Assembly: GCF_004361815.1 (NCBI RefSeq)
Contig: NZ_SNWA01000001.1
Coordinates: 1,302,001 to 1,366,000 of the forward strand
Source: Paraburkholderia sp. BL10I2N1
GTDB taxonomy: Bacteria > Pseudomonadota > Gammaproteobacteria > Burkholderiales > Burkholderiaceae
DNA: 64,000 nucleotides
Reading direction: 5' to 3'
The position numbers and the translations under genes were made by a program. This document shows positions 32,476 through 51,729 of the stretch, piece by piece. The notes beneath the pieces were generated by a model. It ran no database searches. It had not been told where the DNA came from and was given only the letters and a program-made list of their open reading frames with translations. Within the stretch, counting starts at the first letter, position 1; every line of letters starts with the position of its first letter.

Positions 32476-34950
32476 TCAGGTTCCGCTCGGAGCCCCGGCA
32501 ATGTACCTCTCCCACATTCCTTCGAACGCCTCTTCCAGGTTGCGCGCGAAGCGCGCGGCGTCGCATAGCGGCGATGCCAGAAGCTGCTCGCGCAAGCCCG
32601 CCCGCAGCACGCGCAGACGCTCACGGTCCGCAGAGAATGCCACGGCTTTGGCGATGTAATCATCATCGTCTGCGGCAATCCAGTCTGCCATACCCGCGGT
32701 CTGGGCAATCGTTTCGCCCACGTGCGACAGAAACCGGTCGCCGCGGCGCGTGAGCACCGGAACGCCCATCCACAGGCTTTCCACGCTCGTCGTTCCCCCC
32801 GGATACGGAAAGGGATCGAGCGCGAGATCGACGCGGTTGTATGTCTCGAGATGTGCAGTCCGCGTCGTGAAACCCTCCAGCAAGAGGCGCTCTGTGGCAA
32901 TGCCATGCGCCTCAAACCGTTCGGTCATTGCGTTGCACCCCGTCGGCCTCATGAACTGCTTGGCCTTCAAAAGCAGACGTGAGCCGGGCACCGCATGCAG
33001 TACACGCGACCAGAGCGCAACCGCTGCGTCGCCGATCTTGTCGGCGTTATTCAGACAGCCGAACGTCACGAATCCATTTTTCGACGCGGGCAGCGAGTCG
33101 ATCGCGATTTCCGGCTCGGGCGGTGCAAAGCACAGATAGCTGTCCGGCAGGCGCCAGGGCTTCTCCACGAAGTGCGACGCTTCGGACTCCGGCAACACAT
33201 GACGGTCCGCCAGAATATAGTCAATGGCCTCGAGCCCGGTGGTCGCGAAAAAGCCAAGCCAGGTCACCTGCACCGGCGCCGGCTTCCAGGCAAACACCGA
33301 CAGCCGGCTGTATGCGGTATGCCCTGACAGATCGACCAGGATGTCGATGCGATCGGAACGAATGAGATTCGCGCAAGCGTCGTCAGGCATACCACTCACG
33401 TCGTGCCACCGCTCGAAACGGGGCTTCAGGCGCACGGTCATTTGATCCACGAAGGCATGCGTCGAGTACGCGACCAGTTGCACGCGCTTCCGGTTCAGGT
33501 GTGCGATGACATTTTCGAGGAAAAAGGCAACAGGGTGGCACTTCAGATCGCCGGAGACAAACCCCACGCGCAGCGGCCGCGTGCCCTCCGTGCTCGCCGG
33601 CACGTGATGCCAGGGTCGCGCGTCTTCGGCCGCCCGCTCGCCAAACCGGGACGCATAACCACGCACCGTCTCGGGCGAAAAGCGCGCAACGGATGTCATG
33701 CTGAACATCAGCGAGTAATACATATTGACTGCCCGGAAACCCCGTTCGAGTGCTTCGAGATAGGCGTCAACTGCAGCCTCATGCTGCCCGAGTGCGTGAA
33801 GAATGTCTCCATGCGTGGCATGTATAGCCGCCGCCCCGTCCAGTAAAAGCGCCTTGCGACAACTCGCCAGCGCCTCTTCAAGCTTGCGCTGTTCGACGAG
33901 CAGAACCACCAGATTGTGGTGCATGACGGCATCGTCAGGGTTGAGCTCGAGCGCATGGCGGTAACTCAGCTCGGCCGCCTCATGCTTTTCGAGTTCGCGG
34001 TACGCATTGCCCAGATTGCTGTACGCCTCGCCCAGCCGGGGGTCGAGTTCGAGCGCGCGCTGGCACGACACGATTGCCGCGTCGTGTTTCTTCTGGCGCC
34101 TCAACGCGCCCCCCAGGTTACAGTGCGCGATCGCCAGCTTCGGATCCAGCGCAACGGCCGCCTCGAACTGCGTCACCGCCTCTTCCAGTTCGCCCGCATC
34201 GCGCAGCGCGCAACCCAGACTGTTGTGCGCGTTCGCGTCATCTCCACCCAGCCCGCGGCGCAGGCTCTCGATCGCCTCCGCCAGCGCGCCGCGCTCGCGC
34301 AGCGCCAGCCCCAGGCCGTGATGCGCCATGCGCAGCTGCGGCATCAGCGACACCGCCCGCCGGTAGCTTGCGATCGCCTCATCGAGCCGCCCCTGCGCCC
34401 GCTGCACATTGCCCAGGTTGTTGTGCGCCTGCGCATACTCCGGCCGCAGCGCCACCGCCTTGCCATAGCTGGCCGCCGCGGCCTCCAGCTCACCCAGGTC
34501 CTGCAGCGCATTGCCCAGGTTGTTGTAGGCCTCGGCGTACCCCGGGCGCAGCTCGATCGCCTGCGCGCAGCTGAGCATCGATGCCTGTGGCTGCCGCGCC
34601 TCGCGCAGCGCGTTACCCAGGTTGTTGTGCGCCTCCGGGTAATCCGGTTTTAACGACACCGCCCGCCGGTAATGCTCGATCGCCTGTGCCAGCTGCCCAC
34701 GCTCCAGCAGCATGTTGCCCAGATTGTTGTAATACGCCGGCTGCGGCTGCACCGCGATCGAGCGCTCCATCAGCCTGATGCCCACCTCGTGCTGCTGCAC
34801 CTGACAGGCCAGCAGCCCCAGGTAATGCAGCGCATCCGCCTGCTCCGGCTGCGCCTGCAGGATCTGCTCGTACAGCCTCTTCGCCTCGGCCAGTTCGCCG
34901 GACCGGTGATGCGCCAGCGCTGCTTTCAGGGAGTGAGAAATATCTTGCAT
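32476..34950 (-). CDS. TPR-GT41 (OGT/SPINDLY-like) glycosyltransferase 1
   Basis: This is a predicted cytosolic protein O-glycosyltransferase of 824 residues. The first 400 or so form about ten TPR repeats (YNNLGNMLLERGQLAQAIEH type); the GT41 catalytic half starts at about 455 (RPLRVGFVSGDLKCHPVAFF) and has DILVDLSGHT, KPAPVQVTWLGFFATTG, FGCLNNADK (Lys equivalent to the UDP-binding lysine of OGT) and [17 protein letters not shown] (about 718). Human OGT has GHTT where this has GGTT, so donor use may differ. The TPR half (to about residue 342) is almost identical in DNA to the next gene. It is the last gene of the minus-strand run, facing fliT; FliC is the likeliest substrate, by position. 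Confidence 0.88.
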   Translation of the reverse strand: MQDISHSLKAALAHHRSGELAEAKRLYEQILQAQPEQADALHYLGLLACQVQQHEVGIRLMERSIAVQPQPAYYNNLGNMLLERGQLAQAIEHYRRAVSLKPDYPEAHNNLGNALREARQPQASMLSCAQAIELRPGYAEAYNNLGNALQDLGELEAAAASYGKAVALRPEYAQAHNNLGNVQRAQGRLDEAIASYRRAVSLMPQLRMAHHGLGLALRERGALAEAIESLRRGLGGDDANAHNSLGCALRDAGELEEAVTQFEAAVALDPKLAIAHCNLGGALRRQKKHDAAIVSCQRALELDPRLGEAYSNLGNAYRELEKHEAAELSYRHALELNPDDAVMHHNLVVLLVEQRKLEEALASCRKALLLDGAAAIHATHGDILHALGQHEAAVDAYLEALERGFRAVNMYYSLMFSMTSVARFSPETVRGYASRFGERAAEDARPWHHVPASTEGTRPLRVGFVSGDLKCHPVAFFLENVIAHLNRKRVQLVAYSTHAFVDQMTVRLKPRFERWHDVSGMPDDACANLIRSDRIDILVDLSGHTAYSRLSVFAWKPAPVQVTWLGFFATTGLEAIDYILADRHVLPESEASHFVEKPWRLPDSYLCFAPPEPEIAIDSLPASKNGFVTFGCLNNADKIGDAAVALWSRVLHAVPGSRLLLKAKQFMRPTGCNAMTERFEAHGIATERLLLEGFTTRTAHLETYNRVDLALDPFPYPGGTTSVESLWMGVPVLTRRGDRFLSHVGETIAQTAGMADWIAADDDDYIAKAVAFSADRERLRVLRAGLREQLLASPLCDAARFARNLEEAFEGMWERYIAGAPSGT
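33925..34950. repeat. 1-kb direct repeat, copy A (TPR-coding)
   Basis: This stretch matches 36472-37497 at a constant offset of 2547 bases with about ten mismatches by eye (near 99% identity). The match ends sharply at the start codon and near codon 342. Internally it also has the 102-base TPR periodicity. Confidence 0.93.
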
Positions 34951-35010
34951 CGCTCTTTAGCGCGGCGTTCACGGACAATCACACGCCCGCTCGCCAACTG
35001 CTCCATTCAT

Positions 35011-37497
35011 TCACGCCGCGGTGGCTGCTTCGGCGACACCGGCGCAGTACCGGGCCCACATGCCCTGGAAGGCGTCGTCGAGATTGCGGGCGAAACGCTG
35101 TGCATCGCATAGCGGCGAGGCCAGCACCTGCGCGCGCAGGCCCGCCCGCAGCACGCGCAGACGCTCGCGGTCCGCAGAGAACGCCACGGCCCTGGCGATG
35201 TAGTCCTCCTCGTTTTCGGCGATCCAGTCTTCGAGACCCGCCGTGTGCAGCAGGCTCTCGCAGATGTGGGTGACGAACCGGTCGCCTTTCATGCACAGTA
35301 CCGGCGAGCCCATCCAGAGGGCTTCGGCAGTCGTGGTACCCCCCGGATAGGGAAACGGGCTCAGCGTGATGTCCACGCGATTGTAGGCATTGAGATACTC
35401 CGCACGCGGCGAGCCGGCTTCAAGGATCAGCCGCCCCGCGTCGATGCCATGTGACGCAAAGCGTGCCACCGTCGAGCGCCAGATGTCTTTCACATTGCTC
35501 CCCGGCGACTTCAGGAACAGCCGCGAGCCTGGCACCGCATGCAGCAGGCGGGACCAAACGGCAATGACGTTATCGTTCAGCTTGATATGCTTGCCAAAGC
35601 AGCCAAAGGTCACACCGTCATTCGTAAGCATCGGCAGCGGACCGATCTTCACCTCGGGCTCGGGCGGCGTGAAACACAGATAGCTGTCCGGCAGGCGCCA
35701 GGGCTTCTCCACGAAGTGCGATGCCTCCGACTCCGGCAACACGTGACGGTCCCCCAGAACATAGTCGATGGCCTTGCAGCCCGTGGTCGCAAAAAAACCG
35801 ATCCACGTCACCTGTACCGGCGCCGGCTTCCACGCGAACACGGGAATTCCGGTGAAGGCCGTATGTCCGGACAGATCGACCAGAATATCGATTCGATCGT
35901 CGTAGACCTTTTGCGCGGCCGCTTCAGTGCTCAGGTGATGCAGCGCGTGCCACCCGGAAAAATACGGCTTGAGGCGTGCAGTGATGTCGTCTTCGATCTC
36001 GCAGGTCGAGTAGGCGACCAGTTGTACGCGCGCGGAGTCGAGGTGCGCGCAGACAGATTCAAGAAAGATGCCGATCGGGTGCAATCTCAGGTCGCCGGAC
36101 ATGAAGCCCACCCGCAGCGGGCGCGCCTCCCCGCTCACGGGCGGCGAATGACGCCAGGGCCTCGCGTGTTCGGCCATCAGGTCGCCGAAACGGACCGCTT
36201 CTTCATGGAACGCTTCCACCGAGGTATTCGGTGAACCCGCGAGATTGAACAGCAGGCGGTTATAGGCCTCTACTCGATCTGGCGCAAGCTGGATCGCCTG
36301 GCGGTAAACAGCGGCCGATCTGACGAGGTCGCCTTGCGCGCGCAGAATGTCACCGAGATTGATGTACATCCGCGCAGTCGGCATGACGAGCGACATGGCC
36401 TTGTTGCTGCTTACCATCGCTTCTTCGAGCTTCTCCAGCTTGAGCAGCACCGTCGTCAGTTCGTCTTGCACGACGGCATCGTCAGGGTTGAGCTCGAGCG
36501 CATAGCGGTAACTCAGCTCGGCCGCCTCATGCTTTTCGAGTTCGTGGTACGCATTGCCCAGATTGCTGTACGCCTCGCCCAGCCGGGGGTCGAGTTCGAG
36601 CGCGCGCTGGCACGACACGATTGCCGCGTCGTGTTTTTTCTGGCGCCTCAACGCGCCCCCCAGGTTGCAGTGCGCGATCGCCAGCTTCGGATCCAGCGCA
36701 ACGGCCGCCTCGAACTGCGTCACCGCCTCTTCGAGTTCGCCCGCATCGCGCAGCGCGCAACCCAGACTGTTGTGCGCGTTCGCGTCATCTCCACCCAGCC
36801 CGCGGCGCAGGCTCTCGATCGCCTCCGCCAGCGCGCCGCGCTCGCGCAGCGCCAGCCCCAGGCCGTGATGCGCCATGCGCAGCTGCGGCATCAGCGACAC
36901 CGCCCGCCGGTAGCTTGCGATCGCCTCATCGAGCCGCCCCTGCGCCCGCTGCACATTGCCCAGGTTGTTGTGCGCCTGCGCATACTCCGGCCGCAACACC
37001 ACCGCCTTGCCATAGCTGGCCGCCGCGGCCTCCAGCTCACCCAGGTCCTGCAGCGCATTGCCCAGGTTGTTGTAGGCCTCGGCGTACCCCGGGCGCAGCT
37101 CGATCGCCTGCGCGCAGCTGAGCATCGATGCCTGTGGCTGCCGCGCCTCGCGCAGCGCGTTACCCAGGTTGTTGTGCGCCTCCGGGTAATCCGGTTTTAA
37201 CGACACCGCCCGCCGGTAATGCTCGATCGCCTGTGCCAGCTGCCCACGCTCCAGCAGCATGTTGCCCAGATTGTTGTAATACGCCGGCTGCGGCTGCACC
37301 GCGATCGAGCGCTCCATCAGCCTGATGCCCACCTCGTGCTGCTGCACCTGACAGGCCAGCAGCCCCAGGTAATGCAGCGCATCCGCCTGCTCCGGCTGCA
37401 CCTGCAGGATCTGCTCGTACAGCCTCTTCGCCTCGGCCAGTTCGCCGGACCGGTGATGCGCCAGCGCTGCTTTCAGGGAGTGGGAAATATCTTGCAT
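35011..37497 (-). CDS. TPR-GT41 (OGT/SPINDLY-like) glycosyltransferase 2
   Basis: This 828-residue paralogue of the preceding gene has TPRs 1-400, then a GT41 domain from about 455 (RPLRVGFMSGDLRLHPIGIF) with DILVDLSGHTAFTG, FGCFGKHIK and GGTTTAEALWMGSPVLC (about 719). Its N-terminal 342 codons are nearly identical to gene 1 but the segment after them and most of the catalytic half are diverged, with only short conserved patches (DSYLCF; AFSADRERLRVLRAGLR). This implies the same TPR docking surface on two different catalytic heads. Gap to gene 1 is 60 bases; the C-methyltransferase gene lies 52 bases upstream. Confidence 0.88.
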   Translation of the reverse strand: MQDISHSLKAALAHHRSGELAEAKRLYEQILQVQPEQADALHYLGLLACQVQQHEVGIRLMERSIAVQPQPAYYNNLGNMLLERGQLAQAIEHYRRAVSLKPDYPEAHNNLGNALREARQPQASMLSCAQAIELRPGYAEAYNNLGNALQDLGELEAAAASYGKAVVLRPEYAQAHNNLGNVQRAQGRLDEAIASYRRAVSLMPQLRMAHHGLGLALRERGALAEAIESLRRGLGGDDANAHNSLGCALRDAGELEEAVTQFEAAVALDPKLAIAHCNLGGALRRQKKHDAAIVSCQRALELDPRLGEAYSNLGNAYHELEKHEAAELSYRYALELNPDDAVVQDELTTVLLKLEKLEEAMVSSNKAMSLVMPTARMYINLGDILRAQGDLVRSAAVYRQAIQLAPDRVEAYNRLLFNLAGSPNTSVEAFHEEAVRFGDLMAEHARPWRHSPPVSGEARPLRVGFMSGDLRLHPIGIFLESVCAHLDSARVQLVAYSTCEIEDDITARLKPYFSGWHALHHLSTEAAAQKVYDDRIDILVDLSGHTAFTGIPVFAWKPAPVQVTWIGFFATTGCKAIDYVLGDRHVLPESEASHFVEKPWRLPDSYLCFTPPEPEVKIGPLPMLTNDGVTFGCFGKHIKLNDNVIAVWSRLLHAVPGSRLFLKSPGSNVKDIWRSTVARFASHGIDAGRLILEAGSPRAEYLNAYNRVDITLSPFPYPGGTTTAEALWMGSPVLCMKGDRFVTHICESLLHTAGLEDWIAENEEDYIARAVAFSADRERLRVLRAGLRAQVLASPLCDAQRFARNLDDAFQGMWARYCAGVAEAATAA
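36472..37497. repeat. 1-kb direct repeat, copy B (TPR-coding)
   Basis: Partner of 33925-34950 in the same orientation. Recombination between the copies would delete 2547 bases and fuse the TPR half of gene 2 to the catalytic half of gene 1, leaving one intact gene. Confidence 0.93.
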
Positions 37498-37549
37498 GGC
37501 TCTGTCGGGGCGGCGCGCGGAAACGCCTCCCGCGGCACCGTCCGGTTGG

Positions 37550-38755
37550 TCAATAGGGGTGGGAGGCGGTGCCGAAGCTTACGAGTTCACCGTCGTGCTC
37601 GATCATCACGTCCAGCACCGTGATTCCTTCACGTGACATCTCGGCAATAATGTCACGCGCCCGCCACTGCGTGGGTATCACAATGACATCGACCGCAGAG
37701 TCCTTCAGCACGTCGCGGTACTGGATCTGCTGCCCGGTTCCCGGCACGTAGGTGCCAGCCTTGTGTGGATCAGAGTCGACAACCAGCGGAAAGCGCAGGG
37801 CGTCGGCGCCGAATTGATGGATGAAGGCTGCGGCCTTCCCCGTCCCTCCCCAGATTGCGACGCGTTTGCCCGATGCCGAAATCGCCGACAGTTGCTGCGC
37901 GATGGTCTTGCGGCTTGTCACCGTGCGCGCTGCGAAACGGGCCGCGGCTTCGGCACGTACGCGCGACTGCGTAGAGACGCCGAGCCTGACAAGCGCGTAG
38001 ACAACTTCGCCGTCGTAGCCGTGTTCGAGCGTGACGACCTCGCCCGCACGCGACATCAACGCACGGAACGACTCGGTGGTGAAATGCGACACATGCTCGT
38101 AGAAAAAATCAGCGAGCCGGCTGGTTTCGAAGACACGGTCAATACACGGCACTTCAGCGAACAGCCAGCATTCCTTGCCCTGCATGGCCGCGCCCCACGC
38201 AAGCGCTTCCAGCAGCTTCGCCGGTTCGGTGAGGTGTTCAAGCACGTGACGAATCACGACGGCGTCGGGCGTGAAAGTAGCCATGTCGACGAGCGGCTCG
38301 AACAGCCGCGCATGAAACTCGACACCGTTGCCCGTTTCGGGGCTCGCGTTCGGATCGAAGCCGACAAAACGGCCCGCCTCGCGCGCCTGCGCGAGCCCGC
38401 GCACGAAATGCCCTTCTCCGCAACCGATCTCGACGACTAGCGGTGCATCAGCCAGCCGGTTCAACAGCAGATCGCGCGTCTCCGCAAGATGGCCCTTCCA
38501 GATCGAGCCGTTGTTGAACATCCGGTTCGGATTGCTTTCGTAGGGAATCGCTTCGTAACGGAATTTGTGATTCCAGACATGCGAACAGGCCGGACATTGG
38601 ACGAAGTCCTGCGCATGGCGCGGCAACGCGCGTGCGCCTTCGGCCGACGTCGGCCAGGCGAGCGTCGCCAGGGTTTGCTCGCCGGCCGGAAAAAAGCGGG
38701 CTGCGACAAAGTGAGCGCAAACCGGGCAGCTCGCTGCCACCATATCGAGACTCAT
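37550..38755 (-). CDS. Sugar C-methyltransferase-like protein
   Basis: This is a 401-residue protein with the three-part layout of nucleotide-sugar C-methyltransferases (NovU/TylC3 type). The N-terminal zinc-binding region has CPVC (about 10) and CPAC (about 53). The SAM-binding Rossmann domain has [15 protein letters not shown] (about 105-120) and HVLEHL. The C-terminal Methyltransf_14-type domain has [18 protein letters not shown] and [17 protein letters not shown]. Family members transfer a methyl group from SAM to a carbon of an NDP-4-keto sugar. Its start overlaps the stop of the UDP-xylose-synthase-like gene by 4 bases, so the two are probably made together. Confidence 0.82.
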
Positions 38756-39693
38756 GATGTCACCACCTTCCTGAAATATGCGATGGTCTCCTTCAGACCG
38801 TCTTCGAGTTCAATGCCGGGCTGCCAGTCGAGATGCCGGCGCGCCTTCGAGATGTCGGGCCGACGTTGAACAGGATCGTCCGGGGGAAGCGGACGGTACA
38901 CGAGACGGCTCTTCGAGCCGGTCAGACGCAGCACCGTTTCCGCCAGTTCCCGGATCGTGATTTCCGACGGATTGCCGACATTCACCGGGCCGACTTCGTC
39001 GTCCTGGTCCATCATCCGCAGCAGCCCTTCGACCAGATCATCGACGTAGCAGAACGAGCGGGTCTGGCTGCCATCGCCGTATAGCGTGATCGGTTCGCCC
39101 TTCAATGCCTGCATGATGAAGTTCGACACGACGCGGCCATCGTCAGGGCGCATGCGCGGTCCATAGGTGTTGAAGATCCGTACGATCCGGATGTCGACGC
39201 CGTGCTGCCGGTGATAGTCGAAAAATAGCGTTTCGGCGCAACGCTTCCCTTCGTCATAGCAGGCGCGCGGTCCGTTCGGATTCACATTGCCCCAGTAACT
39301 TTCCTGCTGCGGATGCTGCTGCGCATCGCCATAGACTTCGCTTGTCGATGCCTGCAGGATCCTGGCATTGCAGCGTTTGGCTAGCCCCAGCATGTTGATC
39401 GCGCCGAGGACCGCCGTCTTCACGGTGGAAACAGGATCGCTCTGATAGTGCACGGGACTCGCCGGACAGGCCATGTTGAACACGCGGTCCGCCTCGACGT
39501 AGAGGGGCAGCCACACGTCATGGCGAATCAGCTCGAAGTTCACCTCGCCGATCAGATGCTGGATGTTCTGCTTGCTGCCGGTATGAAAATTGTCGACGCA
39601 CATCACGTCGTGGCCGGCGCGCACCAGCCGCTCGCACAGGTGCGAGCCAAGAAAGCCGGCGCCGCCGGTAATCAGGATCGAGTCCGCGTTCAT
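38752..39693 (-). CDS. UDP-glucuronate decarboxylase (UDP-xylose synthase)-like
   Basis: This is a short-chain dehydrogenase-fold enzyme of 313 residues: NAD-binding [40 protein letters not shown], and catalytic YDEGKR (Tyr/Lys near 144-148) within [20 protein letters not shown]. This pattern is specific for UDP-xylose synthases, which oxidise and decarboxylate UDP-GlcA via UDP-4-keto-xylose. The ATG at 39693 overlaps the stop of GT41 gene 3 (ATGA) and its own stop overlaps the C-methyltransferase start. The triple coupling GT41-UXS-methyltransferase suggests one pathway. The frame to 39780 is not used. Confidence 0.88.
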
Positions 39694-41570
39694 TGCGTCG
39701 ATTCCACACTGGCGACGTGTTGGGCCCACATCCCGTGAAGCGCGCTCTCGAGATTCCTCGCAAACCGCGGTGCATCGCACAGCGGCGACGCGAGAACCTG
39801 CTCGCGCAGACCCGCGCGCAGGGTTTTCAGGCGTTCGCGATCACCGGCAAAGGCTACTGCCCGGGCGATATAGTCTTCGTCGTCGTTGGCAATCCAGCCG
39901 CCGAGACCAGCCGAGTGCAACAGGCTTTCGCAGATGTGCGACAGGAAGCGGTCGCCGCGGCGACATAGCACCGGCACGCCCATCCACAAGCCTTCGGCCG
40001 TCGTGGTACCGCCCGCATACGGAAACGGGCTTAGCGTGATGTCGACGCGATTGAACGCCGCCAGATATTCGGCGCGGGGCGAATGGCCTTCCAGGATCAA
40101 TCGCGAAGCGGCGATTCCATGGGCGGCGAAACGACGGACGACTGCCTCGCGGACGTGCGCGACGTCGAGGTGTTCAGCCTTGAGGAACAGGCGCGATCCC
40201 GATACCGCCAGCAGCAGGCGGGACCATACGGCGATGACGGGGTCGGTCACCTTCGTCAGCTTGCCGAAGCTTCCGAACGTCACGTGGCCGTTGGCGAGCA
40301 TCGGCAGCGGCCCGACCTTGACGTCATCGCGCGGCGGCGTGAAGCACAGGTAGCTGTCAGGCAGGCGCCACGGCTTCTCGACGAAGTGCGCTTCTTCCGC
40401 AGCAGGCAACACGTGACGGTCGCCGAGCACATAGTCGATTGTGCGCAAACCCGTACTGGCAAAATAGCCAGGCCAGCTCACCTGTACCGGCGCGGGCTTG
40501 CGCGCGAAAAGTGGCAAACGGTTGTACGTGGTGTGGCCCGACGCATCGATGAGCACGTCGACGCGGTCGTCGCGAATCTTCCGCGCGGCCGCTTCGTCGC
40601 TCATGCCGGCAATGCTCGTCCATGCGGCAAAGCGCGGCATGATGCGGTACGTCAGTTCGTCTTCGAGCACGCGCGTCGGGTAGGCGAAGAGTTCGACGCG
40701 CGCCGGATCAAGATTCGCTACGACGCTTTCCAGAAAGTACCCGACCGGGTGCTTCTTGAGATCGCCCGAGACGACGCCGACGCGCAACGGCCGTGCCGTT
40801 CGCGGTCCGATATCCACCAGCCAGTCCGACGAGGGTTTCACCTGCGCGCCAGCGCTTTGCGCAAAGCGCTGCGCCTCGTCCAGGTACTCTGCTACCGACA
40901 GGTCGTGTCTATAGTTCAGAGCGAACAGCAGATTGCTGCGCGGCGCGGCGAAATCCGGTCGCAGCGAAATGGCTTGACGGTATGCCTCGATAGCGGCATC
41001 GAGTTCGTCGAGTTCCATCAGCGTGTTCGCGAGGTTGTTGTATGCCTGCCCGTGCTCCGGCTGCAGGCTGAGGACGTCGCAAAACGCCTGCGCCGCCGCT
41101 TCATACTCCTTGAGGGCACGCAGCGCATTGCCAAGATTGTTATGCGCGTCGACATAGTCCGGCTGCAGCGCTAACGCCTGGCGGAAACACTCGGCGGCGG
41201 CTGCAGGCCGATTGTGTGTCTGCATGACGTTGCCAAGGTTGTAGTAGTAGATCGCCTGCGGGTTGCTGGAGATCGCCGCCATGATCAGCTCAGAGGCGGT
41301 GTCGTATTGCCCGAATTGATGCGCGATAAGTCCCAGCAGGTGCTGTGCGTCCGCATGGTCCGGGTGGGTCGAGAGAATTTGCCGATAGAGCGTCTCGGCC
41401 TCGTCGAGGCGATCGGCCTGATGATGCTCGAGCGCGGTCTGGAGTGCGGCTTCCAGCGGCACCGTCAGCGGTGCGGGCGTTATGGCGGAGATCGCCGGCG
41501 ACGGCATACGCAGCCAGGAGGCACCGCCGCCTTCGAGCGGTGACGGGTCGTGATGACCGAGGTCGTTCAT
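39690..41570 (-). CDS. TPR-GT41 glycosyltransferase 3 (short)
   Basis: This 626-residue member is shorter than the others because it has only about six TPRs (about 30-240). The GT41 domain starts at about 262 ([20 protein letters not shown]) with [35 protein letters not shown] and [17 protein letters not shown] (about 520). The N-terminal 30 residues are unrelated to the paralogues. Start and stop overlap neighbouring genes by 4 bases on both sides (GT41 gene 4 and the UXS-like gene). The catalytic half is closest by eye to gene 2. Confidence 0.87.
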
Positions 41571-43729: not shown

Positions 43730-43755
43730 TGCTCCTGTCCATCGCCATCGCTATC

Positions 43756-43781
43756 GCTAAAGCGCGTTGCCGCGCTTTAGC
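43756..43781. repeat. Inverted repeat upstream of GT41 gene 4
   Basis: GCTAAAGCGCG-TTGC-CGCGCTTTAGC is an 11-base perfect stem, 27 bases before the GT41 gene 4 start and 55 bases past the end of the upstream glycosyltransferase gene. No T-run follows on either strand, so it may be a leader hairpin or operator. Confidence 0.6.
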
Positions 43782-43835
43782 TGCCGAACACCGGGTCATA
43801 TCGATCAGACGGCTCGCCCCCCGGCGTGTGCATGC

Positions 43836-44522
43836 CTAGTCTGTGTACTTGTGCAGATAGCGCTGATACGCGTCGCGCCATGCGGGTGTACCGAATGCCC
43901 CGCCGCTTTCGTGAATAACGCTGATGGGCCACGTCCCCATCCGTAAGCCTTTCAGTTCGGCCTGCCGGCAGAAATCCATGTCGTAAAAGTGAAACGCGAA
44001 CTGCTCGTCGAAACCCAGACCGACTTCGTTCAGACGCTCGCTATCGGCCGCCAGCAGCAGCCCATCGAGAAGCTTGCACTCCAGCCCTGCGGGCCCGTAC
44101 ATGGACACGTCGCTACACGGGAAGCCCTTACCGTGGCCGACCACGCCGCTGAAGAAGCGCGGATCGTCGCGCGTGAAGCCCGGATCGACAAAGATCCAGG
44201 CCGGTTGACGCGGTACCCGGCGCGTGTTGCCCGCCAGACCGACCACGTCGAACTTGTCGACCGCCTCACGGATCCTGTCCATCCAGAAGAAGTCGGACAG
44301 GTAAATATCGTCATGGATGAAGACCAGGATCGCTGGATTGTCTTTCGCCTGCTGGATCGCCTTGTTGTAGATCGTCGAGAGGCCTGCCTTGTTGTTGTCG
44401 AAGAGGAGAAGCTGCGGCGGATTCCGGTAGCGACTGACCGTCAGCGAACGTCCCAATGCTGTCTTCTGCACGAAGTCGTCGTACGAGACACGGGTGCCGC
44501 AAACCAGTCGAATAGGCTTCAT
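43836..44522 (-). CDS. Small GT2-like glycosyltransferase (StrF type)
   Basis: This 228-residue protein resembles the Glyco_tranf_2_5/StrF-like glycosyltransferase family. It starts MKPIRLVCGTRVSYDDFVQK, has VFIHDDIYL (candidate DxD-type metal site, about 68-76), the acceptor-region segment FHFYDMDFCRQAELKGLRMG, and a C-terminal HESGGAFGTPAWRDAYQRYL. The ATG at 44522 has no clear ribosome site, but upstream frame residues look non-coding. It is separated by 290 gene-free bases from the WbqC-like gene upstream. The sugar and acceptor are unknown. Confidence 0.75.
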   Translation of the reverse strand: MKPIRLVCGTRVSYDDFVQKTALGRSLTVSRYRNPPQLLLFDNNKAGLSTIYNKAIQQAKDNPAILVFIHDDIYLSDFFWMDRIREAVDKFDVVGLAGNTRRVPRQPAWIFVDPGFTRDDPRFFSGVVGHGKGFPCSDVSMYGPAGLECKLLDGLLLAADSERLNEVGLGFDEQFAFHFYDMDFCRQAELKGLRMGTWPISVIHESGGAFGTPAWRDAYQRYLHKYTD

Positions 44523-44812
44523 AAAAGGAAAATCCAGGAAAAAACGAACGATCCAGTCTCGTCGGGTCGAGTACGTAGAGGCGGAGCGGGAGGCACTGCA
44601 CGACCACAAGGCCGCCGCCCACTGTCAACATCTCCACTCGCCGATAACGACGCCTGATGCTGGCGTTGTGACCGCGATGATTGAATCTTGCGGGTTATTG
44701 TGGCCGCGACCGCAGGATCCTGATCAATGGATCAAGCCGCGTAAATGGTCGCTATTCCGCGTACTGTCGTTGCGCCCAGCCGGCGGCGACAGCACGCTCG
44801 CGGAAAGTTGAT

Positions 44813-45532
44813 CTATGGCGCCTGCAACGTCACGTGACTGCGGAGCGCGTGGGCGACCTTGTCGGGTGCATTCCACAACAGCACGTCAATGATCGACAGA
44901 TGGGGCTCGTACCGGAACGGCGCGGGGTCGTAGGTGAATTCGTCGAACCCGGCAAAGCGGAGCGATACGCCGATGCGCGCGAATTTGACAGGGTCGAAAA
45001 GATCGCGACCGCCGAGCGGATTCACGTATTCCGTCGCGCCCAGCGCGCGACAGATGAACGGCGCCCAGTCGCCCGGCCCCATCTCCTCGGGAAACGCCAG
45101 GTTCAGTTCAGAGCCGATACGCCACGAAAAGGGCAGGCCGAGATATTCGCACACCGCCTGCAGCGCGTTGACGTTCAGCGCACACAGCGAATCGCCTGTG
45201 GTGCGCTCGAACGCGTCACGCACCAGCTGACTCACCTCCGCATAGAACGGTGCATGCTTTCGAAATGTGGAGAGCTTGCCAAGCAGGCTCGTTTTCGTAT
45301 CGATGAGGTTGAGTACGCGCGCTTCATGCGTTTTGATCGATGTCGAGGAGTTCGCCAGCGGCACTGTCGCGTACTGCCAGCCTTCCTTCGGATGAAGAAT
45401 GCGATTCCGGTTCATCCACGTCTTCGGCGTGTACTGCGTCACGTCGAAGACGATCCATTCATCGACGGCAGCAATCAGCGCGAAATGCCCGAGATACGGG
45501 AAAAAATACGGCTGCATGATGCCGAGTTTCAC
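44813..45532 (-). CDS. WbqC-like family protein
   Basis: This 239-residue protein starts at a GTG (45532) that overlaps the preceding stop as GTGA: MKLGIMQPYFFPYLGHFALI, the typical WbqC-family opening. Other conserved parts are VIVFDVTQYTPKTWMNRNRI-like and the central Cys/Ala-rich FICRALGATEYVNPLGGRDL. WbqC-family genes occur in O-antigen and flagellar glycan loci beside aminotransferases; their reaction is not established to my knowledge, though modification of an amino sugar is plausible. It is the last gene of the coupled aminotransferase block. Confidence 0.82.
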   Translation of the reverse strand: MKLGIMQPYFFPYLGHFALIAAVDEWIVFDVTQYTPKTWMNRNRILHPKEGWQYATVPLANSSTSIKTHEARVLNLIDTKTSLLGKLSTFRKHAPFYAEVSQLVRDAFERTTGDSLCALNVNALQAVCEYLGLPFSWRIGSELNLAFPEEMGPGDWAPFICRALGATEYVNPLGGRDLFDPVKFARIGVSLRFAGFDEFTYDPAPFRYEPHLSIIDVLLWNAPDKVAHALRSHVTLQAP

Positions 45533-46689
45533 GAACGCTCTCCACCCGCATGGGTTGCTCGCGAGGAGGCCTCGCCGATGATCTCGCACACCGTGTCGAC
45601 CATCGGCACGCTCACGTGCGCACCCACGGGTAGCATCAGCCACGACGCGCCGATGTGCGCGGCGGCCGTCAGGCCGCTTATGTCAGCGGACGCTCCTTGC
45701 GCCGCAATCACCGGACGCGCCTCGACATTGTCGGCTGCCAGCCGTTCGATCAGCGCATCGCGCGTCAATCCGAAAACCTGCTCGTCGATCTCGCACATCA
45801 ACGCCTGGTGATTCGATACATCGACGCTCGCGGGCTCGACCACACGTAGTCCACGCACCGCGTCCAGACGCGTGCGATAGGCGTCGAAAAGGGTCCGGTT
45901 GTGCGCCCGGTTAGCGGCGTAGTCGTCAAGGCTCAACAGCCCGATCGCGGCCTGCGCCTCGGACATTCGCCCGTTCGATGTCTTCACGACGGCCACCGGG
46001 CGGCCCGCACCGTAGCTACTGCGAATGTTGCGCAGGCGGGCGGCAAGCTCGTCATCGTCCGTCGTTACGCAGGCACCGCCACCCGCATTCAGCACGTCCC
46101 TTTCGCTGAAGGCCAGCACTTCGACCTGGCCAAACGTACCGACTCGCCGGCCCCCGATTTCGCAGCCGAACGCATGCGCGGAATCAAAGAGCACGGGCAG
46201 GCCGCGCGAGTGCGCGAAGTCCTCCAGCGCGCCGGCCGCGCACGCGCCACCCCAGAGATTCGCGGCAAACACAGCACCGACAGGCGTCGTGAGCCGCTCT
46301 GCGAGACTCGCGACCGACATCTGGCCGGTCATGGAGTCGACGTCGCAGACAACGGCTTCGACCCCGCACCACGCCATCGCGTGCAATGCCGCCGCGTTGC
46401 TCACAGCGGGCACCAGCGCGCTGCCGCGCACGCCTAGCGCCTCGCTTGCCATCATCAGGCCAATGGCTTCATTGGTCACGCAGACCGCGTGCCGGACGCC
46501 GACAAAATCCTGCAGACGCTCTTCGAAAGCACGCGCGAGCGGCCCCTGGTTAGTGTAGTAGCGGCGCTCGAAAATATCCCGCATGGCGGCCTCGTAGCGG
46601 TCCCACGAAGGCATGTTGTACTGGCCAATCGCCACGACCTGCGCGAACGCTGGCGCGCGCAGATTCATTGCGGCATGCCGCCCCGTCAT
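45529..46689 (-). CDS. DegT/DnrJ-fold protein lacking the PLP lysine
   Basis: This 386-residue protein has the overall DegT/DnrJ/EryC1 aminotransferase fold: YYTNQGPLARAFEERLQDFV, AANLWGGACAAG, LFDSAHAFGCEIGG. But the segment that should read SFHxxK is AFSERDVLNAGGGA, with Asp198 where the Schiff-base lysine belongs (Lys203 and Lys188 in the two neighbours). The phosphate-binding SGT is replaced by TNEA. It therefore cannot be a normal PLP transaminase. It may partner the adjacent homologue, be a dehydratase-like derivative, or be regulatory. It overlaps both neighbours by 4 bases, so it is made in step with them. It has a GAGGTGA ribosome site. Confidence 0.85.
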   Translation of the reverse strand: MTGRHAAMNLRAPAFAQVVAIGQYNMPSWDRYEAAMRDIFERRYYTNQGPLARAFEERLQDFVGVRHAVCVTNEAIGLMMASEALGVRGSALVPAVSNAAALHAMAWCGVEAVVCDVDSMTGQMSVASLAERLTTPVGAVFAANLWGGACAAGALEDFAHSRGLPVLFDSAHAFGCEIGGRRVGTFGQVEVLAFSERDVLNAGGGACVTTDDDELAARLRNIRSSYGAGRPVAVVKTSNGRMSEAQAAIGLLSLDDYAANRAHNRTLFDAYRTRLDAVRGLRVVEPASVDVSNHQALMCEIDEQVFGLTRDALIERLAADNVEARPVIAAQGASADISGLTAAAHIGASWLMLPVGAHVSVPMVDTVCEIIGEASSRATHAGGERS

Positions 46690-47879
46690 ACATTCACCTC
46701 TGCGGTTTCGACGCGTGCGCGGATTTCGTCTGCGTGCGCGCGTATGAACGACAGCAACGCGACGACGGTATCGATATCGTCAATCGTAACGAAGTCGCCG
46801 CATGGCATCAGCGCGAAACGGCCAGCGAGGCGGTCCGTTTGTGGCAGATCGGCGGGGATATACGGATACGCCATCGGTTTGCTGTGCAACGGCGGCGCGT
46901 AGTATGCCCGCGCCAGCACACGCTCGGCGTTCAGGATGTCGATCGTCAGCGACCGGGAAAGCGGCCAGTTGTCCAGTTGTTCGACCACGATGTTCTTGTA
47001 ACTGGTGCGATGTGTCTCGTCGAAGTCGATCAGACGGATACCGGGCACAGCGGGTAACAGCTTGCGGTAGTGGTAATAACGCTCGCGGTTGCGCAACACC
47101 TGGGCGTCGAGTTCGTCGAGATTGGCAAGCGCCATGGCCGCATGCGTGTCGCCGAGCCGGGCATCGAGTGCGCCCCGCTGCAGCGTGCCGCCATCGCGCA
47201 GACTAGCCAGCGTGCTGGCGAGCGCCCGATCGTTGGTGGTTACGTAGCCGCCCTCGAAGCCGTTGAGCAGCTTGCTTGCGTGCAGTGAGAAGCACTCCGC
47301 GTAGCCGAAACCACCCACCCTGCCCGAATCGCACGCCTCATAGACGGATTCGACAGAATCGAACAGGAGCGGAATCCCTTGCTGCGTCGCGAGGTCGACG
47401 AGACCCTCCACGTCGCAGCAGTTGACTATGGGGTGCACACCGAGCAGCAGCGCAGTGTCGTCGCCGAGGCAGGCACTCGCAGTCGCGGCGCTGATCGCAA
47501 GCGTCGAGGAATCAACTTCGCAAAAGCGCGGCAGCATGCCGGTCCACGCAACGACGTCGGCCATGCGCCGATAGGTTAGCGACGGCATCACCACTTCACG
47601 CCGGCCGGGACGGGCAAGCGCGATCATCGTCACCGCAAGCGCCCAGAAGCCGCTGCAAAAGCTCACGCAGTGAGCAACCTCGTGAAACTGCGCGAGGCGC
47701 TCTTCCAGCAACTTCGTGACCGCGCCCGGCGGCGTGCCTGGCGTGACGAACGCCGCCTGCGCGTAGTCGAGAAAACGTCCGAACTCCGGCTGAACGAGAT
47801 TCGATGTCGATTTTGGCGCCGTAAAGAGCGGTGGCGCGCCGAACAGCGCGAGATCCGCCGCGCCTTGCCGGCCGTTCAT
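46686..47879 (-). CDS. DegT/DnrJ-family aminotransferase (lysine present)
   Basis: This is a 397-residue PLP-dependent sugar aminotransferase homologue. FCSGFWALAVTM takes the place of the SGTxAL phosphate loop (Thr to Phe), LLFDSVES holds the PLP-nitrogen Asp, and SLHASKLLNGFEGG contains Lys203, the expected Schiff-base residue. The ATG at 47879 overlaps the methyltransferase stop (ATGA) and its stop overlaps the lysine-less homologue. Family members transfer an amino group to an NDP-keto-sugar; the position and sugar are unknown. Divergent loops suggest a substrate unlike that of the VioA-like enzyme. Confidence 0.85.
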   Translation of the reverse strand: MNGRQGAADLALFGAPPLFTAPKSTSNLVQPEFGRFLDYAQAAFVTPGTPPGAVTKLLEERLAQFHEVAHCVSFCSGFWALAVTMIALARPGRREVVMPSLTYRRMADVVAWTGMLPRFCEVDSSTLAISAATASACLGDDTALLLGVHPIVNCCDVEGLVDLATQQGIPLLFDSVESVYEACDSGRVGGFGYAECFSLHASKLLNGFEGGYVTTNDRALASTLASLRDGGTLQRGALDARLGDTHAAMALANLDELDAQVLRNRERYYHYRKLLPAVPGIRLIDFDETHRTSYKNIVVEQLDNWPLSRSLTIDILNAERVLARAYYAPPLHSKPMAYPYIPADLPQTDRLAGRFALMPCGDFVTIDDIDTVVALLSFIRAHADEIRARVETAEVNV

Positions 47880-48625
47880 TGGGCGGGCCCTCCGGCACCG
47901 CCTGTCGCGCGGCGCCGCAAGACGACGTCGTAGCGATAGTGCACTGAGAAGAACGACGCCGGCATCGACGAGAATTCGGTGTCCCAGCCCGCGTCGGCGG
48001 CCATCGCGGCAAATTCGTCCTGGGTGCGCCAAATGCCGATCTGCGCGCGCGGGTCGGTGAGTTCACCGGGCAACGGCGTGCGCGGCGCGTAAAACGCCGC
48101 CGCACGGTCGCGATCCGGCAGGTTGCCGATGAAGATCGAATTGACTTTGGCAAAGCGCCGATGCAGCAGGTGCAGCGCAGATTCGGCGTCCTGCTGGGAA
48201 AAATACGCGAAGCTGCCGTAGCACAGCACCTTCGTGAACCGTTCTGGCGCCGGCTCGTTGAGCAGATATTCGGCTGCGCCGTTGGCGATAAAGGTGAACT
48301 TCGGCGCGTCGGCAAAATGCGCGTTAGCGACCTCGATCAGGTATTCGGACAGGTCGACGCCGACCAGTGCTGCGCACGCATCGAACAGCCGCTGGGACAG
48401 CGCGCCGTTGCCGCACGCGAGATCGAGCACGACGTCATCCGGCTGCAACGCGAGATGCCGCCGGATCGCGTGAACGATCATGTCGATATGCTCGTCCGGC
48501 ACGGCTTTGCCGCGCACCGTGCGCTTGACCTGAGCCCAGAAGTCGTCGGGAGGACAGGTCCGTGCGTGTTCGTCGTAGTCGACGGTGGGGTAGTCGCGCA
48601 ATGGGGTTTGCGTAGCGTTTGACAT
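47876..48625 (-). CDS. Class I SAM-dependent methyltransferase
   Basis: This 249-residue methyltransferase has motif I in VVLDLACGNGALSQRLF (about 66-82), an acidic motif II in LVGVDLSEYLIEVA, and KVLCYGSFAYF as motif IV/post-I region. No membrane segments. In flagellin-glycan loci such genes add O- or N-methyl groups to sugars. Here it lies 39 bases after the VioA-like gene and overlaps the next aminotransferase by 4 bases, which suggests methylation of the amino sugar or its acyl group. The acceptor is inferred only from context. Confidence 0.85.
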   Translation of the reverse strand: MSNATQTPLRDYPTVDYDEHARTCPPDDFWAQVKRTVRGKAVPDEHIDMIVHAIRRHLALQPDDVVLDLACGNGALSQRLFDACAALVGVDLSEYLIEVANAHFADAPKFTFIANGAAEYLLNEPAPERFTKVLCYGSFAYFSQQDAESALHLLHRRFAKVNSIFIGNLPDRDRAAAFYAPRTPLPGELTDPRAQIGIWRTQDEFAAMAADAGWDTEFSSMPASFFSVHYRYDVVLRRRATGGAGGPAQ

Positions 48626-48664
48626 GAGGGTCCCAGGTAGCCGGTCTGGCGATTGGCGTGCGGC

Positions 48665-49807
48665 TTAGCTTGCGCGGCGCTTGCGCCATGCGCACGAAAG
48701 AATCGTCTCGATGACGCGCTCCTGGTCTGCGTCATCCAGCGCCGGGAAAATCGGAAGGCAGAGCACCTGACGCGAGATCGCCGTCGCAACCGGCAGGTTG
48801 TGCGGACCTGCAGACGGCAGGCCGCGGTACATTGGAAACTCGCTGATCAGCGGGTAAAAATAACGGCGCGCGGCGATATGTTTTTCACGCAGCTCGTTAT
48901 ACAGATCGTCCCGGCTGACAGGGAACTCCGGCGTGACGAGAATCGGAAAGTACGCAAAGTTCCTTGTGCAATGCACCGGCACGTCGTGCATCGCGATCCC
49001 GTGCAGATTGCGAAGCGCATCCCGATAACGCGCATCGATGCGGGCGCGCTGCGCGTTGACCTCATCCATGTGCTTGAGCTGCAGCAGTCCGAAGGCGGCC
49101 TGAACTTCGTTCATCTTGCCGTTGATACCGGGCGCCACGACCGTCGTCTCATCGACAAAGCCGAAGTTCTTCAGATTGTCGATACGGCGCTTGGTCTTCG
49201 CGTCGCGACAGACGATCGCGCCGCCTTCAAAGGTGTTGAACACCTTGGTGCCGTGAAAGCTCAGCACCGACATGTCGCCGTAGTGAAGCACCGAGCGATC
49301 GTTGATACGCACGCCAAAGGCATGGGCCGCGTCGTAGATCACACGCAGCCCGTAGGTATCGGCGATCGACTCGATCCGCTCGACGTCGCACGGATTGGCA
49401 TACACATGGACCGGCAGGAGCGCGGTGGTTTGCGGCGTGATTGCCGCTTCGATTTTCTCGGGGTCCAGATTCAGACTGACTGGGTCAATGTCGGCAAATA
49501 CAGGCTTGATACCGTTCCAGTGCAGGGCATGGGTCGTGGCGACAAAGCTGAACGGCGTCGTGATGACTTCGCCGGTGATCTTCAATGCCTGCAACGCGGT
49601 GATCAGCGCCAGCGTCCCGTTCGAGAACAGCGAGAGATGCTCGACACCGAGGTAGTCGCACAACTGCTCTTCGAGTTGCTGATGGAACACGCCGTTATTG
49701 GTTACCCACTTGCGATCCCAGATTTCTTCGAGGTACGGCCGGAACTCGTCCAGCGGAGGTAGGAACGGTTGCGTGACGGGAACGAAAGTCGGTTTCGGAT
49801 CGCTCAT
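48665..49807 (-). CDS. VioA-like sugar aminotransferase
   Basis: This 380-residue DegT-family aminotransferase resembles VioA/QdtB-type enzymes. It opens FVPVTQPFLPPLDEFRPYLE, has FSNGTLALITALQAL (phosphate loop), TTPFSFVATTHAL, VIYDAAHAFGV and SFHGTKVFNTFEGG with catalytic Lys188. VioA converts dTDP-4-keto-6-deoxyglucose to dTDP-4-amino-4,6-dideoxyglucose (viosamine), a sugar known on Pseudomonas syringae flagellin. The needed RmlA/RmlB enzymes are not in this window and would have to lie elsewhere. It is the first gene of the five-gene block ending with the WbqC-like gene. Confidence 0.85.
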   Translation of the reverse strand: MSDPKPTFVPVTQPFLPPLDEFRPYLEEIWDRKWVTNNGVFHQQLEEQLCDYLGVEHLSLFSNGTLALITALQALKITGEVITTPFSFVATTHALHWNGIKPVFADIDPVSLNLDPEKIEAAITPQTTALLPVHVYANPCDVERIESIADTYGLRVIYDAAHAFGVRINDRSVLHYGDMSVLSFHGTKVFNTFEGGAIVCRDAKTKRRIDNLKNFGFVDETTVVAPGINGKMNEVQAAFGLLQLKHMDEVNAQRARIDARYRDALRNLHGIAMHDVPVHCTRNFAYFPILVTPEFPVSRDDLYNELREKHIAARRYFYPLISEFPMYRGLPSAGPHNLPVATAISRQVLCLPIFPALDDADQERVIETILSCAWRKRRAS

Positions 49808-50016
49808 GGAGTGCGCCTGGAATCGGTCGGGTCGAATGAACGTCCCTGTTTTGCGCCCCTGTATGCGCCACGGGGTCTAAGAGCGGGCTCTTGAATGACG
49901 ATGACGGCGCAGGTTGGCTTGATCGAAGTGTGTCACCAGTCCCCGCGCCCCGATCGGTCAAACAGGCGGGCGAATGCCCGCCAATTCCGCGAAACGCCTG
50001 TCATCGGGCACGACGC

Positions 50017-51729
50017 TCAGGCCGAGAAGGCAGGCATGTGTCCTTTCGAGAAAAGGAAGAACGGTTCGCGCACATTGCAGCCGACGACGTCCGGATCGAT
50101 CTCGCCCAGCACCGTCTTGTGCGGATACAGATCGCCGCTCAGGCCGGCGCCACGGAAGTAGTCGACGATGTCGGCACCGAAAAGCCGCACGTGATCGTCC
50201 TGACCAAAATAGCGCGTGGCGAACGCGCCAGAAACGGGCCGGTTCAACTCGAACGTATGCTTGAGCACGGGCGAATACGGCGTCTGCGCGACCAGATGCC
50301 CGGTCGGCGTGAGGCAACGGCTGAATTCGGCAATCGCCTGCGCCGGGTTGTCGACGTGCTCCAGCACATGATTGCAGATGATCAGATCGAAGTAGCCGCC
50401 AGGGAAATCGAGCGACTCGACGTTAATCTTGCGATGCGCCGGCGAACGGGGAAACAGGTCGCCTGCGATGTACTCCATCGGCTCCAGGGCACGGATGCGC
50501 GGCTCCAGCCGTGCTTCCGGCGCGATGTGCAGGATACGTTTGCTCGACGCGTTCTCGAGCAGACCCGAGTATGCGAAATACAGCCAGAGATGGCGGTCGC
50601 GATCGTTGCAATAGCAGTTCGGGCAATGATGCTTTTCAAGCGTCGAGCCGACGGATTCGACCTGCTGCATGAAGTCCCGATCGCTCCCGGCAGCCGGGTG
50701 CGGCAGCCATTCCGTGACGGGCTTGTCGCACACCACGCAGAACTTCTGTGCGACGGGTGCCGCCTGCGCCACGGGCTTTCGACGTGCCGCCACGCGCGCC
50801 GCCACGGCCGAGCGCGCACGCTCCAGGTCGGCCTGGAAGCGCTGGGAGGCGAACAGTTCGTGCGTCGGACGGGCAATCAGTTCCTGCAGATTGCCGAGCA
50901 GGTGCGCGAGTTCCGGCAGCTTGCCGGCCCAGTTCGAATAGAGTTGCGTCAAAAGCTGCTGCGCCGAGGCGAGCGCTTCGCCTTCGAGATACCCGGCCCC
51001 CGCCTCGCCGCGCACCATCAGTTCCCATTCATACAGGCCCGCGCTGAAGTTGGGGCTGAGCGCGTTCGAGCTTTGGCCATCGTGCCGCCGGAACGCGCTC
51101 AGGTACCCGCCTACTGCGACGAGCGGTCCGTGCGCGGACAGGTTCAGATAGATCGCCACGTCGCCGAGAAAGTCCAGCTTCCATGAGCGATAGTCGAACA
51201 CGCCCGCCGCATCGATCAGCCTTTCACGGTTGAACATGATGTTGCTCGGCTCGCCGATGAAATTGTTCAGCTTGCCGACCATTTCCCGTACGAGAAGCGC
51301 ACGGTCGATCAACGCGCGCTCGCCGTCCTTGAGCAAGGGCGGGGGCACCTGGCTCACGGCGTCGTTTTCGTCGATGATCACGCGCCCGTGGAACGCCATC
51401 GCCGACTCGGGATGCGCGCGCAACGCCTCGACGAGCGCTTCGACCGAAGTGGGCATCAGGACGTCATCGTCGTACAGCCACTTGATGTACTTGCCGCTTG
51501 CCCGCTGCAGCAGCGCCTGCGAATTACGCGTGCCTTTCTGGAAGCCATGATGGAAGTACTGGATACGCGGATCGGCGAAGCTTCTGACGGTCTGTTCAAG
51601 CGCCGCATCCGGCGTGTCGTCGCCGACCAGAATCTCGATATCGTCAAACGTCTGGCCTTGCGCACTGGTCAGTGCCCTTCCCAGAAACCGGGCCTTGTAC
51701 GCCGGAATCAGAATGCTGACGGTAGCCAT
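50017..51729 (-). CDS. GT2 glycosyltransferase fused to zinc-finger and methyltransferase domains
   Basis: This 570-residue fusion has an N-terminal GT-A/GT2 domain (1-230; VSILIPAYKARFLGRALTSA, GDDTPD, and KWLYDDDVLMP as the metal-binding DxD), a helical and Ala/Arg-rich linker (about 240-330), a four-cysteine zinc-ribbon-like segment (CVVCDKP and CPNCYCNDRDR, about 335-380), and a C-terminal SAM methyltransferase-type domain (ILHIAPEARLEPRI, FDLIICNHVLEHV, CLTPTGHLVAQTPYS). It may add a sugar and then methylate it, capping the glycan. AGGAAAGG precedes the ATG. It lies 209 bases upstream of the VioA-like gene and may be the first gene of the island. Confidence 0.82.
   Translation of the reverse strand: MATVSILIPAYKARFLGRALTSAQGQTFDDIEILVGDDTPDAALEQTVRSFADPRIQYFHHGFQKGTRNSQALLQRASGKYIKWLYDDDVLMPTSVEALVEALRAHPESAMAFHGRVIIDENDAVSQVPPPLLKDGERALIDRALLVREMVGKLNNFIGEPSNIMFNRERLIDAAGVFDYRSWKLDFLGDVAIYLNLSAHGPLVAVGGYLSAFRRHDGQSSNALSPNFSAGLYEWELMVRGEAGAGYLEGEALASAQQLLTQLYSNWAGKLPELAHLLGNLQELIARPTHELFASQRFQADLERARSAVAARVAARRKPVAQAAPVAQKFCVVCDKPVTEWLPHPAAGSDRDFMQQVESVGSTLEKHHCPNCYCNDRDRHLWLYFAYSGLLENASSKRILHIAPEARLEPRIRALEPMEYIAGDLFPRSPAHRKINVESLDFPGGYFDLIICNHVLEHVDNPAQAIAEFSRCLTPTGHLVAQTPYSPVLKHTFELNRPVSGAFATRYFGQDDHVRLFGADIVDYFRGAGLSGDLYPHKTVLGEIDPDVVGCNVREPFFLFSKGHMPAFSA

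Follow-up and report, generated by a model that had tools for sequence, protein, structure and literature searches.

The window analysed here, a 64,000-nucleotide stretch of Paraburkholderia sp. BL10I2N1 (positions 1,302,001 to 1,366,000 of NZ_SNWA01000001.1, contig 1 of a 9.2-Mb genome labelled G000; coordinates below are window positions), carries 13 minus-strand glycan genes (32476-51729) that point at the plus-strand flagellar genes fliC-fliD-fliT (29539-32294) and are convergent with fliT. Judged from its sequence, this locus likely encodes a system for the O-glycosylation of flagellin in the cytoplasm, based on four arrayed transferases, each joining tetratricopeptide repeats (TPR) to a glycosyltransferase family 41 (GT41) catalytic domain. 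A GT41 array adjoins fliT in 21 of 97 genomes of the genus, and these same 21 genomes are the ones in which the compact 272-residue flagellin (FliC) of G000 has a full-length match at E <= 1e-104. Within the genus, the sugar C-methyltransferase-like gene of the cluster, CMT, is carried by 13 of 97 genomes (E <= 1e-40), once in each and always inside the fliCDT locus, and the aminotransferase-like gene DegT2 occurs in six (E <= 1e-50), always within 19 kb of fliD. Flagellin decoration is the simplest reading, because the TPR half of FlmG of Caulobacter crescentus binds flagellin (extract of PMC7591256) and because Burkholderia cenocepacia has, three gene numbers away from its flagellin gene BCAL0114, the gene BCAL0111, which is catalogued both as an O-linked N-acetylglucosamine transferase and as a putative TPR domain protein (extracts of PMC3502180 and PMC2753556). 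The flagellin glycosylation proposed in an earlier note on this DNA thus gains indirect support from the placement of CMT and DegT2, from the lack of flippase, polymerase and membrane-transferase families in the cluster, and from these TPR-type precedents. The locus is real and conserved, and it probably serves flagellin glycosylation; its features are as follows.

29539..30357, plus strand: fliC, compact 272-residue flagellin without the outer-domain insert, presumed acceptor (full-length match in 21 of 97 genus genomes)
30528..31955, plus strand: fliD, filament cap (Pfam FliD_N and FliD_C)
31989..32294, plus strand: fliT-like export chaperone (position and conservation beside fliD; name from the earlier note)
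32476..34950, minus strand: GT41a, TPR plus GT41 catalytic domain (PF13844; catalytic His and Lys kept)
33920..34950, minus strand: TPR block of GT41a, its first 1031 nucleotides (99.0% identical to the GT41b block)
35011..37497, minus strand: GT41b, TPR plus GT41 catalytic domain (PF13844; catalytic His and Lys kept)
36467..37497, minus strand: TPR block of GT41b (matches the GT41a block)
37550..38755, minus strand: CMT, sugar C-methyltransferase-like (PF13489 and PF08484)
38752..39693, minus strand: UXS, UDP-glucuronate decarboxylase (UDP-xylose synthase; 412 bits to solved UDP-glucuronic acid decarboxylase 1)
39690..41570, minus strand: GT41c, TPR plus GT41 catalytic domain (PF13844; catalytic His and Lys kept)
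41567..43729, minus strand: GT41d, TPR plus GT41 catalytic domain, GTG start (PF13844; catalytic His and Lys kept)
43836..44522, minus strand: GT2s, small GT2-like protein of 228 residues (PF13712 just under cut-off; homologues match)
44813..45532, minus strand: WbqC-family protein, accessory module (PF08889, 184 bits)
45529..46689, minus strand: DegT1, DegT-family protein without the pyridoxal phosphate (PLP) lysine, accessory module (family scan, alignment)
46686..47879, minus strand: DegT2, aminotransferase-like, PLP lysine kept, accessory module (family scan, alignment)
47876..48625, minus strand: MT, S-adenosylmethionine (SAM)-dependent methyltransferase, accessory module (family scan)
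48665..49807, minus strand: DegT3, aminotransferase-like, PLP lysine kept, accessory module (family scan, alignment)
50017..51729, minus strand: GT2MT, GT2 glycosyltransferase fused to a SAM methyltransferase, accessory module (family scan)

Checks with Pfam and open reading frames (ORFs) recovered every glycan gene named in the earlier note where it had been placed, all on the minus strand and converging on plus-strand fliC, fliD and fliT. The many 4-base overlaps it described are exact at 6 of 12 junctions, with gaps of 39 to about 290 bases at the other six. The start of GT2s is most likely 44522 rather than 44609, and the most likely starts of UXS (39693), WbqC (45532) and DegT2 (47879) lie inside their longest ORFs. 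All eight PF13844 matches in the genome fall within the four GT41 proteins of the locus, and the profile search of the 9.2-Mb genome found no GT41 gene outside it. The closest relatives are Paraburkholderia proteins: the catalytic region of GT41a shares 95% identity with one assigned to Paraburkholderia sp. GAS448, and CMT shares 78-85% identity with proteins assigned to P. gardini, P. azotifigens, P. sabiae, P. phymatum and others.

The GT41 array and compact flagellin in the genus and beyond

Because the adjacency to fliT is kept in other genomes, the neighbourhood is not due to chance, and the synteny search beside fliC that the earlier note had suggested returned the array both in the genus and in a second one (g6, below). 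Comparison at locus level of the 21 genomes whose GT41 genes face fliT revises the view that four GT41 paralogues in one flagellar locus are unusual: four is the most frequent number in what is a conserved type of locus (11 of 21, including G001, in which one copy is split over two frames), with three domains in six genomes and two in four. A core of GT41 genes, CMT, UXS and further GT41 genes, mostly followed by GT2s, is found in 13 of these array loci, and CMT and UXS are absent from the other eight. The full set of WbqC, DegT1, DegT2, MT, DegT3 and GT2MT is present in G000, G076, G053 and G095 and partial in G035 and G080. No close homologue of these genes follows GT2s within the 35-36 kb compared in G001, G042, G043 and G083; at a greater distance, three of the four have DegT3-like matches of 29-30%. 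G029 and G070 have DegT2 together with a long FliC and no CMT, and in G029 a single divergent GT41 is followed by DegT3-MT-DegT2-DegT1-WbqC. The DegT, WbqC and methyltransferase genes are an accessory module separate from the UXS/CMT core, and since each is found without the other beside fliCDT, the window joins two modules. A Pfam scan of array neighbours, covering some of the genes of G003, G001 and G020, identified in G003 a further GT2 gene and then urea-type transport and amidase genes, and in G020 a different set of sugar genes. In G001 (locus L059), the flank past the glycan core holds GmrSD-type restriction genes and a C-5 cytosine methylase, and so may be an integration site.

The array and the flagellin type coincide across the genus. 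Compact FliC measures 272-276 residues in the array genomes; the next best match in any other genome is partial (E 5e-47), and three genus genomes have no FliC match at E <= 1e-28. Of the 76 non-array genomes, 44 were fetched at the locus, some of the stretches being cut by contig ends. FliC is 381-556 residues long in 43 of these, and in G008 the frame of a long-type FliC breaks at 249 residues. None of the 44 has a GT41 array: their stretches hold no GT41 domain in 11 genomes, one in 31 and two in 2. Of the 31 single GT41s, 30 are encoded on the plus strand and one, that of G050, on the minus strand about 13 kb into the stretch; they score 318-364 bits against the array profile, whereas array domains score 579-657 bits except for the third GT41 of G044 (401 bits) and the split pieces in G001 (166 and 443 bits). 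In the 32 unfetched non-array genomes, no two GT41s lie within 10 kb of each other among the matches listed. A quick rpoB tree built from 93 genomes requires at least four changes of the FliC/array type (G068 and G091 not counted), and the compact-FliC/array type has therefore switched several times in the genus. Further compact fliC copies of 271-272 residues occur in G001, G020, G024, G042, G053, G082, G083 and G095, on other contigs or far from the array, and in both G024 and G082 one extra copy adjoins a second fliD. Enrichment of Ser/Thr in compact FliC was considered and rejected: among 20 compact and 43 long FliC proteins (G008 being dropped for its broken frame), 10 of 272 shared columns were gained and 10 lost.

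Among 299 genomes of the family, CMT is present in 12 (E <= 1e-60), four of the own genus and eight of genus g6, which is probably Burkholderia, because a 76% identical CMT homologue is named from B. ambifaria. Seven of the eight g6 loci have four GT41 domains; the eighth, G641, lies at a contig end, its GT41 domains being left uncounted. The genes fliD-fliT stand beside the array in six of the eight, the stretch or contig ending before fliT in the other two, and FliC is compact in both g6 genomes checked. In 300 genomes of the order, CMT was found in G000 and in two 3-Mb genomes of another family, G202 and G309, in each case within a GT41-UXS-CMT-GT41 cassette in the latter two (L076, 10563-19996, in G202; L075, 367-9929, in G309). 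The G309 cassette has a SPASM-domain protein between its genes and a NeuB gene nearby. A contig scan with GT41d gave 27 loci, from which the own genus was not returned, and none of them matched the fliC, fliD or fliT of the window (tblastn, E <= 1e-6). Azospirillum plasmid records (NZ_CP032346.1, NZ_CP032322.1 and others) hold 34-37 GT41d-matching places per megaplasmid record, counts in which TPR-only matches are not separated out.

Exchange of TPR and catalytic blocks among the GT41 genes

GT41a and GT41b are 99.0% identical over their first 1031 nucleotides, the TPR block, and then 42-92% identical per 60-nucleotide step. The trees of the TPR half and the GT half conflict: the TPR blocks of the two genes cluster together (support 100/99), and their catalytic domains cluster with counterparts in other species (support 98/90 and 98/96). 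Approximately unbiased (AU) tests reject both a single clade of GT41a-type TPRs (p 0.0003) and a single clade of the two G000 catalytic domains (p 6e-5), the clades having been picked after the identities were known, so that these p values are descriptive. Raw catalytic identity is 66% between GT41a and GT41b and 67-70% to the counterparts in G003, G035 and G076. G034 is an independent case of TPR/GT exchange, in which proteins 1 and 2 share the TPR part (99.5% over 768 nucleotides) and proteins 2 and 3 share the catalytic domain (97.3% over 846 nucleotides). The other genomes compared show no near-identical block between neighbours, save for 100% identical pieces where the ends of ORFs overlap. 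In both G049 and G080, two GT41 domains share one open frame (1361 and 1375 residues), probably through a single fusion event, because their domains pair in the tree. In G044 (locus L053), the third GT41-like gene is very divergent, and a 1411-residue open frame has about 1040 residues ahead of its GT41 domain.

Copied TPR blocks on different catalytic domains would fit readers of one acceptor equipped with different writers. The paralogues, with long-separated catalytic domains mostly grouping by type across species and TPR blocks copied between neighbours, may accordingly be pictured as interchangeable readers of a single acceptor, although gene conversion between tandem repeats could yield such copies without any selection. 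The best-surviving alternative holds that the four GT41 genes are redundant or serve variation, tandem copies recombining to alter the decoration with no fixed division of labour. The near-identical TPR blocks of GT41a and GT41b, the double sharing in G034 and the split copy in G001 all point that way. However, the catalytic domains of each of the types a, b and c fall into a supported clade that spans species, and the tree that places the two G000 catalytic domains together is rejected, though the raw identities differ little; we regard this alternative as unlikely.

How flagellin transferases choose their acceptor and sugar is poorly understood. GT41a and GT41b form a natural matched pair, a near-identical TPR reader on two catalytic domains, and G034 offers one protein whose TPR sequence is shared with one of its neighbours and whose catalytic domain is in large part shared with the second; with these pairs, how TPR and GT divide the work can be tested directly. 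That compact flagellin goes together with the array further suggests that a filament surface can be built either from glycans or from outer domains, and sugars may take the place of the outer part that the short flagellin filament lacks. As a tentative proposal, which we hold with distinctly less confidence than flagellin glycosylation itself, the genus may possess two exchangeable flagellum types: one with a long FliC bearing outer domains, in most cases served by a single dedicated GT41 or by no GT41 at all, and one with a compact FliC whose surface is rebuilt by a tandem GT41 array. TPR readers and GT writers would be swapped by recombination, and sugars would replace the outer domains as the variable face of the filament.

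Enzymes, proposed pathway and alternative targets

All four GT41 proteins of the locus combine a TPR array with a PF13844 domain (E 2e-44 to 3e-38, Pfam). Against solved structures, GT41d scores best with SPINDLY (429 bits) and next with O-GlcNAc transferase (OGT; 390 bits). The catalytic His and the nucleotide-binding Lys are present in all 69 GT41 domains compared, and the second His (GHT) in 67 of them, the four domains of the window having all three. We take the conserved His and Lys to be the equivalents of OGT H498 and K842, with which the alignment of GT41d to the solved structures fits. UXS, at 412 bits to UDP-glucuronic acid decarboxylase 1 chains against 145 bits for the next kind, is by sequence a clear UDP-glucuronate decarboxylase, and CMT, which matches sugar 3-C-methyltransferases weakly (E 3e-15), is a distant relative of these enzymes. 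GT2s and its homologues were compared with PF13712: the score is 25.3-25.9 bits against a cut-off of 27, and all 15 aligned homologues match at E <= 0.001. For DegT1, DegT2 and DegT3, the best-scoring model is that of the DesI aminotransferase, with all three scores under its cut-off. The PLP lysine is retained in DegT2 (5 of 5 aligned homologues) and DegT3 (7 of 7), and in none of the five DegT1 homologues aligned, which have D, D, N, Q and Q at this position; DegT1 is thus predicted to be either an enzyme other than an aminotransferase or a partner subunit of DegT2 or DegT3. The compound glycan with a pentose-derived and an amino-sugar part, as envisaged in the earlier note, stays hypothetical, given this feature of DegT1 and the separate occurrence of the two modules. 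Elsewhere the genome encodes an RmlB over cut-off (C1:487811) and two NDP-sugar dehydrogenases over cut-off, the presumed suppliers of precursors. No NeuB-type nonulosonic-acid synthase domain is present among the 13 cluster proteins, to which the search for NeuB in this genome was confined.

On this basis, the TPR superhelix of each GT41 protein would bind new FliC before export, by analogy with FlmG, and the SPINDLY/OGT-like domain, given its family and intact catalytic residues, would move one sugar to Ser/Thr of FliC. The core donor would be UDP-xylose from UXS, perhaps C-methylated by CMT at the keto stage. GT2s, together with GT2MT where present, may extend or finish the glycan, and in this strain the accessory module may add an amino-deoxy sugar derived from dTDP-4-keto-6-deoxyglucose. 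The decorated FliC would then be exported.

Several observations weigh against this pathway or against the coupling of array and flagellin. A simple scan found no sigma-28-like promoter above shuffles before the glycan genes; the same kind of ad hoc scan, which like the hydropathy check below is not a curated predictor, gave a sigma-28-like site upstream of fliC that 5 of 200 shuffles equal in score, and the strict sigma-28 pattern has no match in the window. Mean Ser/Thr contents are close, 60.9 in compact and 59.7 in long FliC. Given the linkage of fliC, fliD and the array, part of their pairing may stem from joint inheritance as a single block, and no GT41 lies near the extra compact fliC copies among the matches listed. 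In addition, G202 and G309 carry the cassette and the best fliC match on separate contigs; proximity to flagellin is thus not a constant feature of the cassette, which speaks against a purely flagellar role.

These cassettes bear on the possibility that the array acts on another or several cytoplasmic or flagellar proteins, such as FliD, hook proteins or chemoreceptors, with FliC not the main target. GT41 enzymes can have many targets, and GT41d-related sequences are frequent elsewhere, with 34-37 matching places on some Azospirillum megaplasmids. Within the genus, however, CMT (13 of 13 carrier genomes) and DegT2 (6 of 6) stand in the flagellin locus, and the array accompanies one FliC type, which makes other main targets rather improbable. 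A role of the cluster in lipopolysaccharide or capsule sugar synthesis, its place next to fliC being accidental, was already disfavoured and is highly improbable: DegT, WbqC, GT2 and UXS families are common in surface-polysaccharide loci, but the 13 cluster proteins include no flippase, polymerase or initiating/membrane transferase family (Pfam) and no strong hydrophobic segment (top 19-residue Kyte-Doolittle mean 1.93, inside DegT2), the place beside fliCDT is kept in two genera, and the core stands alone in G001, G042, G043 and G083 over the 35-36 kb compared.

Comparison with known systems

The enzymology of flagellin glycosylation is still poorly defined, according to a recent review (PMC12645811). 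A literature search of titles and the starts of abstracts found, within that range, no GT41 array at flagellin loci, and a search on UDP-xylose with flagellin returned nothing on such loci, as judged by title.

SPINDLY and O-GlcNAc transferase are eukaryotic enzymes with many targets and GDP-fucose or UDP-GlcNAc as donors. The transferases of the window share with these GT41 members (7y4i, 8dtf, 3pe3) the TPR plus GT41 domain and the retained catalytic His and Lys. FlmG of C. crescentus, compared by its description in an extract of PMC7591256, likewise has a soluble N-terminal TPR part and a C-terminal GT-B-like transferase for flagellins; its system has one transferase and a pseudaminic acid donor, whereas the present cluster has four paralogues and no NeuB-type gene. 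Within the same genus, the single-GT41 loci with long FliC (G094, G046, G029 and G014) resemble the window in having a TPR-GT41 gene after fliT and differ in that it is one divergent (33-36% identical), co-directional GT41 accompanied by a FliC of 389-471 residues; that of G029 also carries DegT3-MT-DegT2-DegT1-WbqC, as the window does.

In B. cenocepacia, BCAL0111 is reportedly needed for flagellin glycosylation, and the system, in the 2014 work of Hanuszkiewicz, is said to rely on one transferase and to attach one acylated amino sugar; the FliC of this system is presumably longer than the compact FliC here. Compared by the descriptions in the available extracts, the BCAL0111 system shares with the present one a TPR/O-GlcNAc-transferase-like gene near fliC and differs in its type II FliC, the window instead combining four transferases, a compact FliC and a UXS/CMT core. 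TPR-type flagellin transferases are already known; the new elements are the GT41 array, the exchange of modules and the pairing with a compact flagellin.

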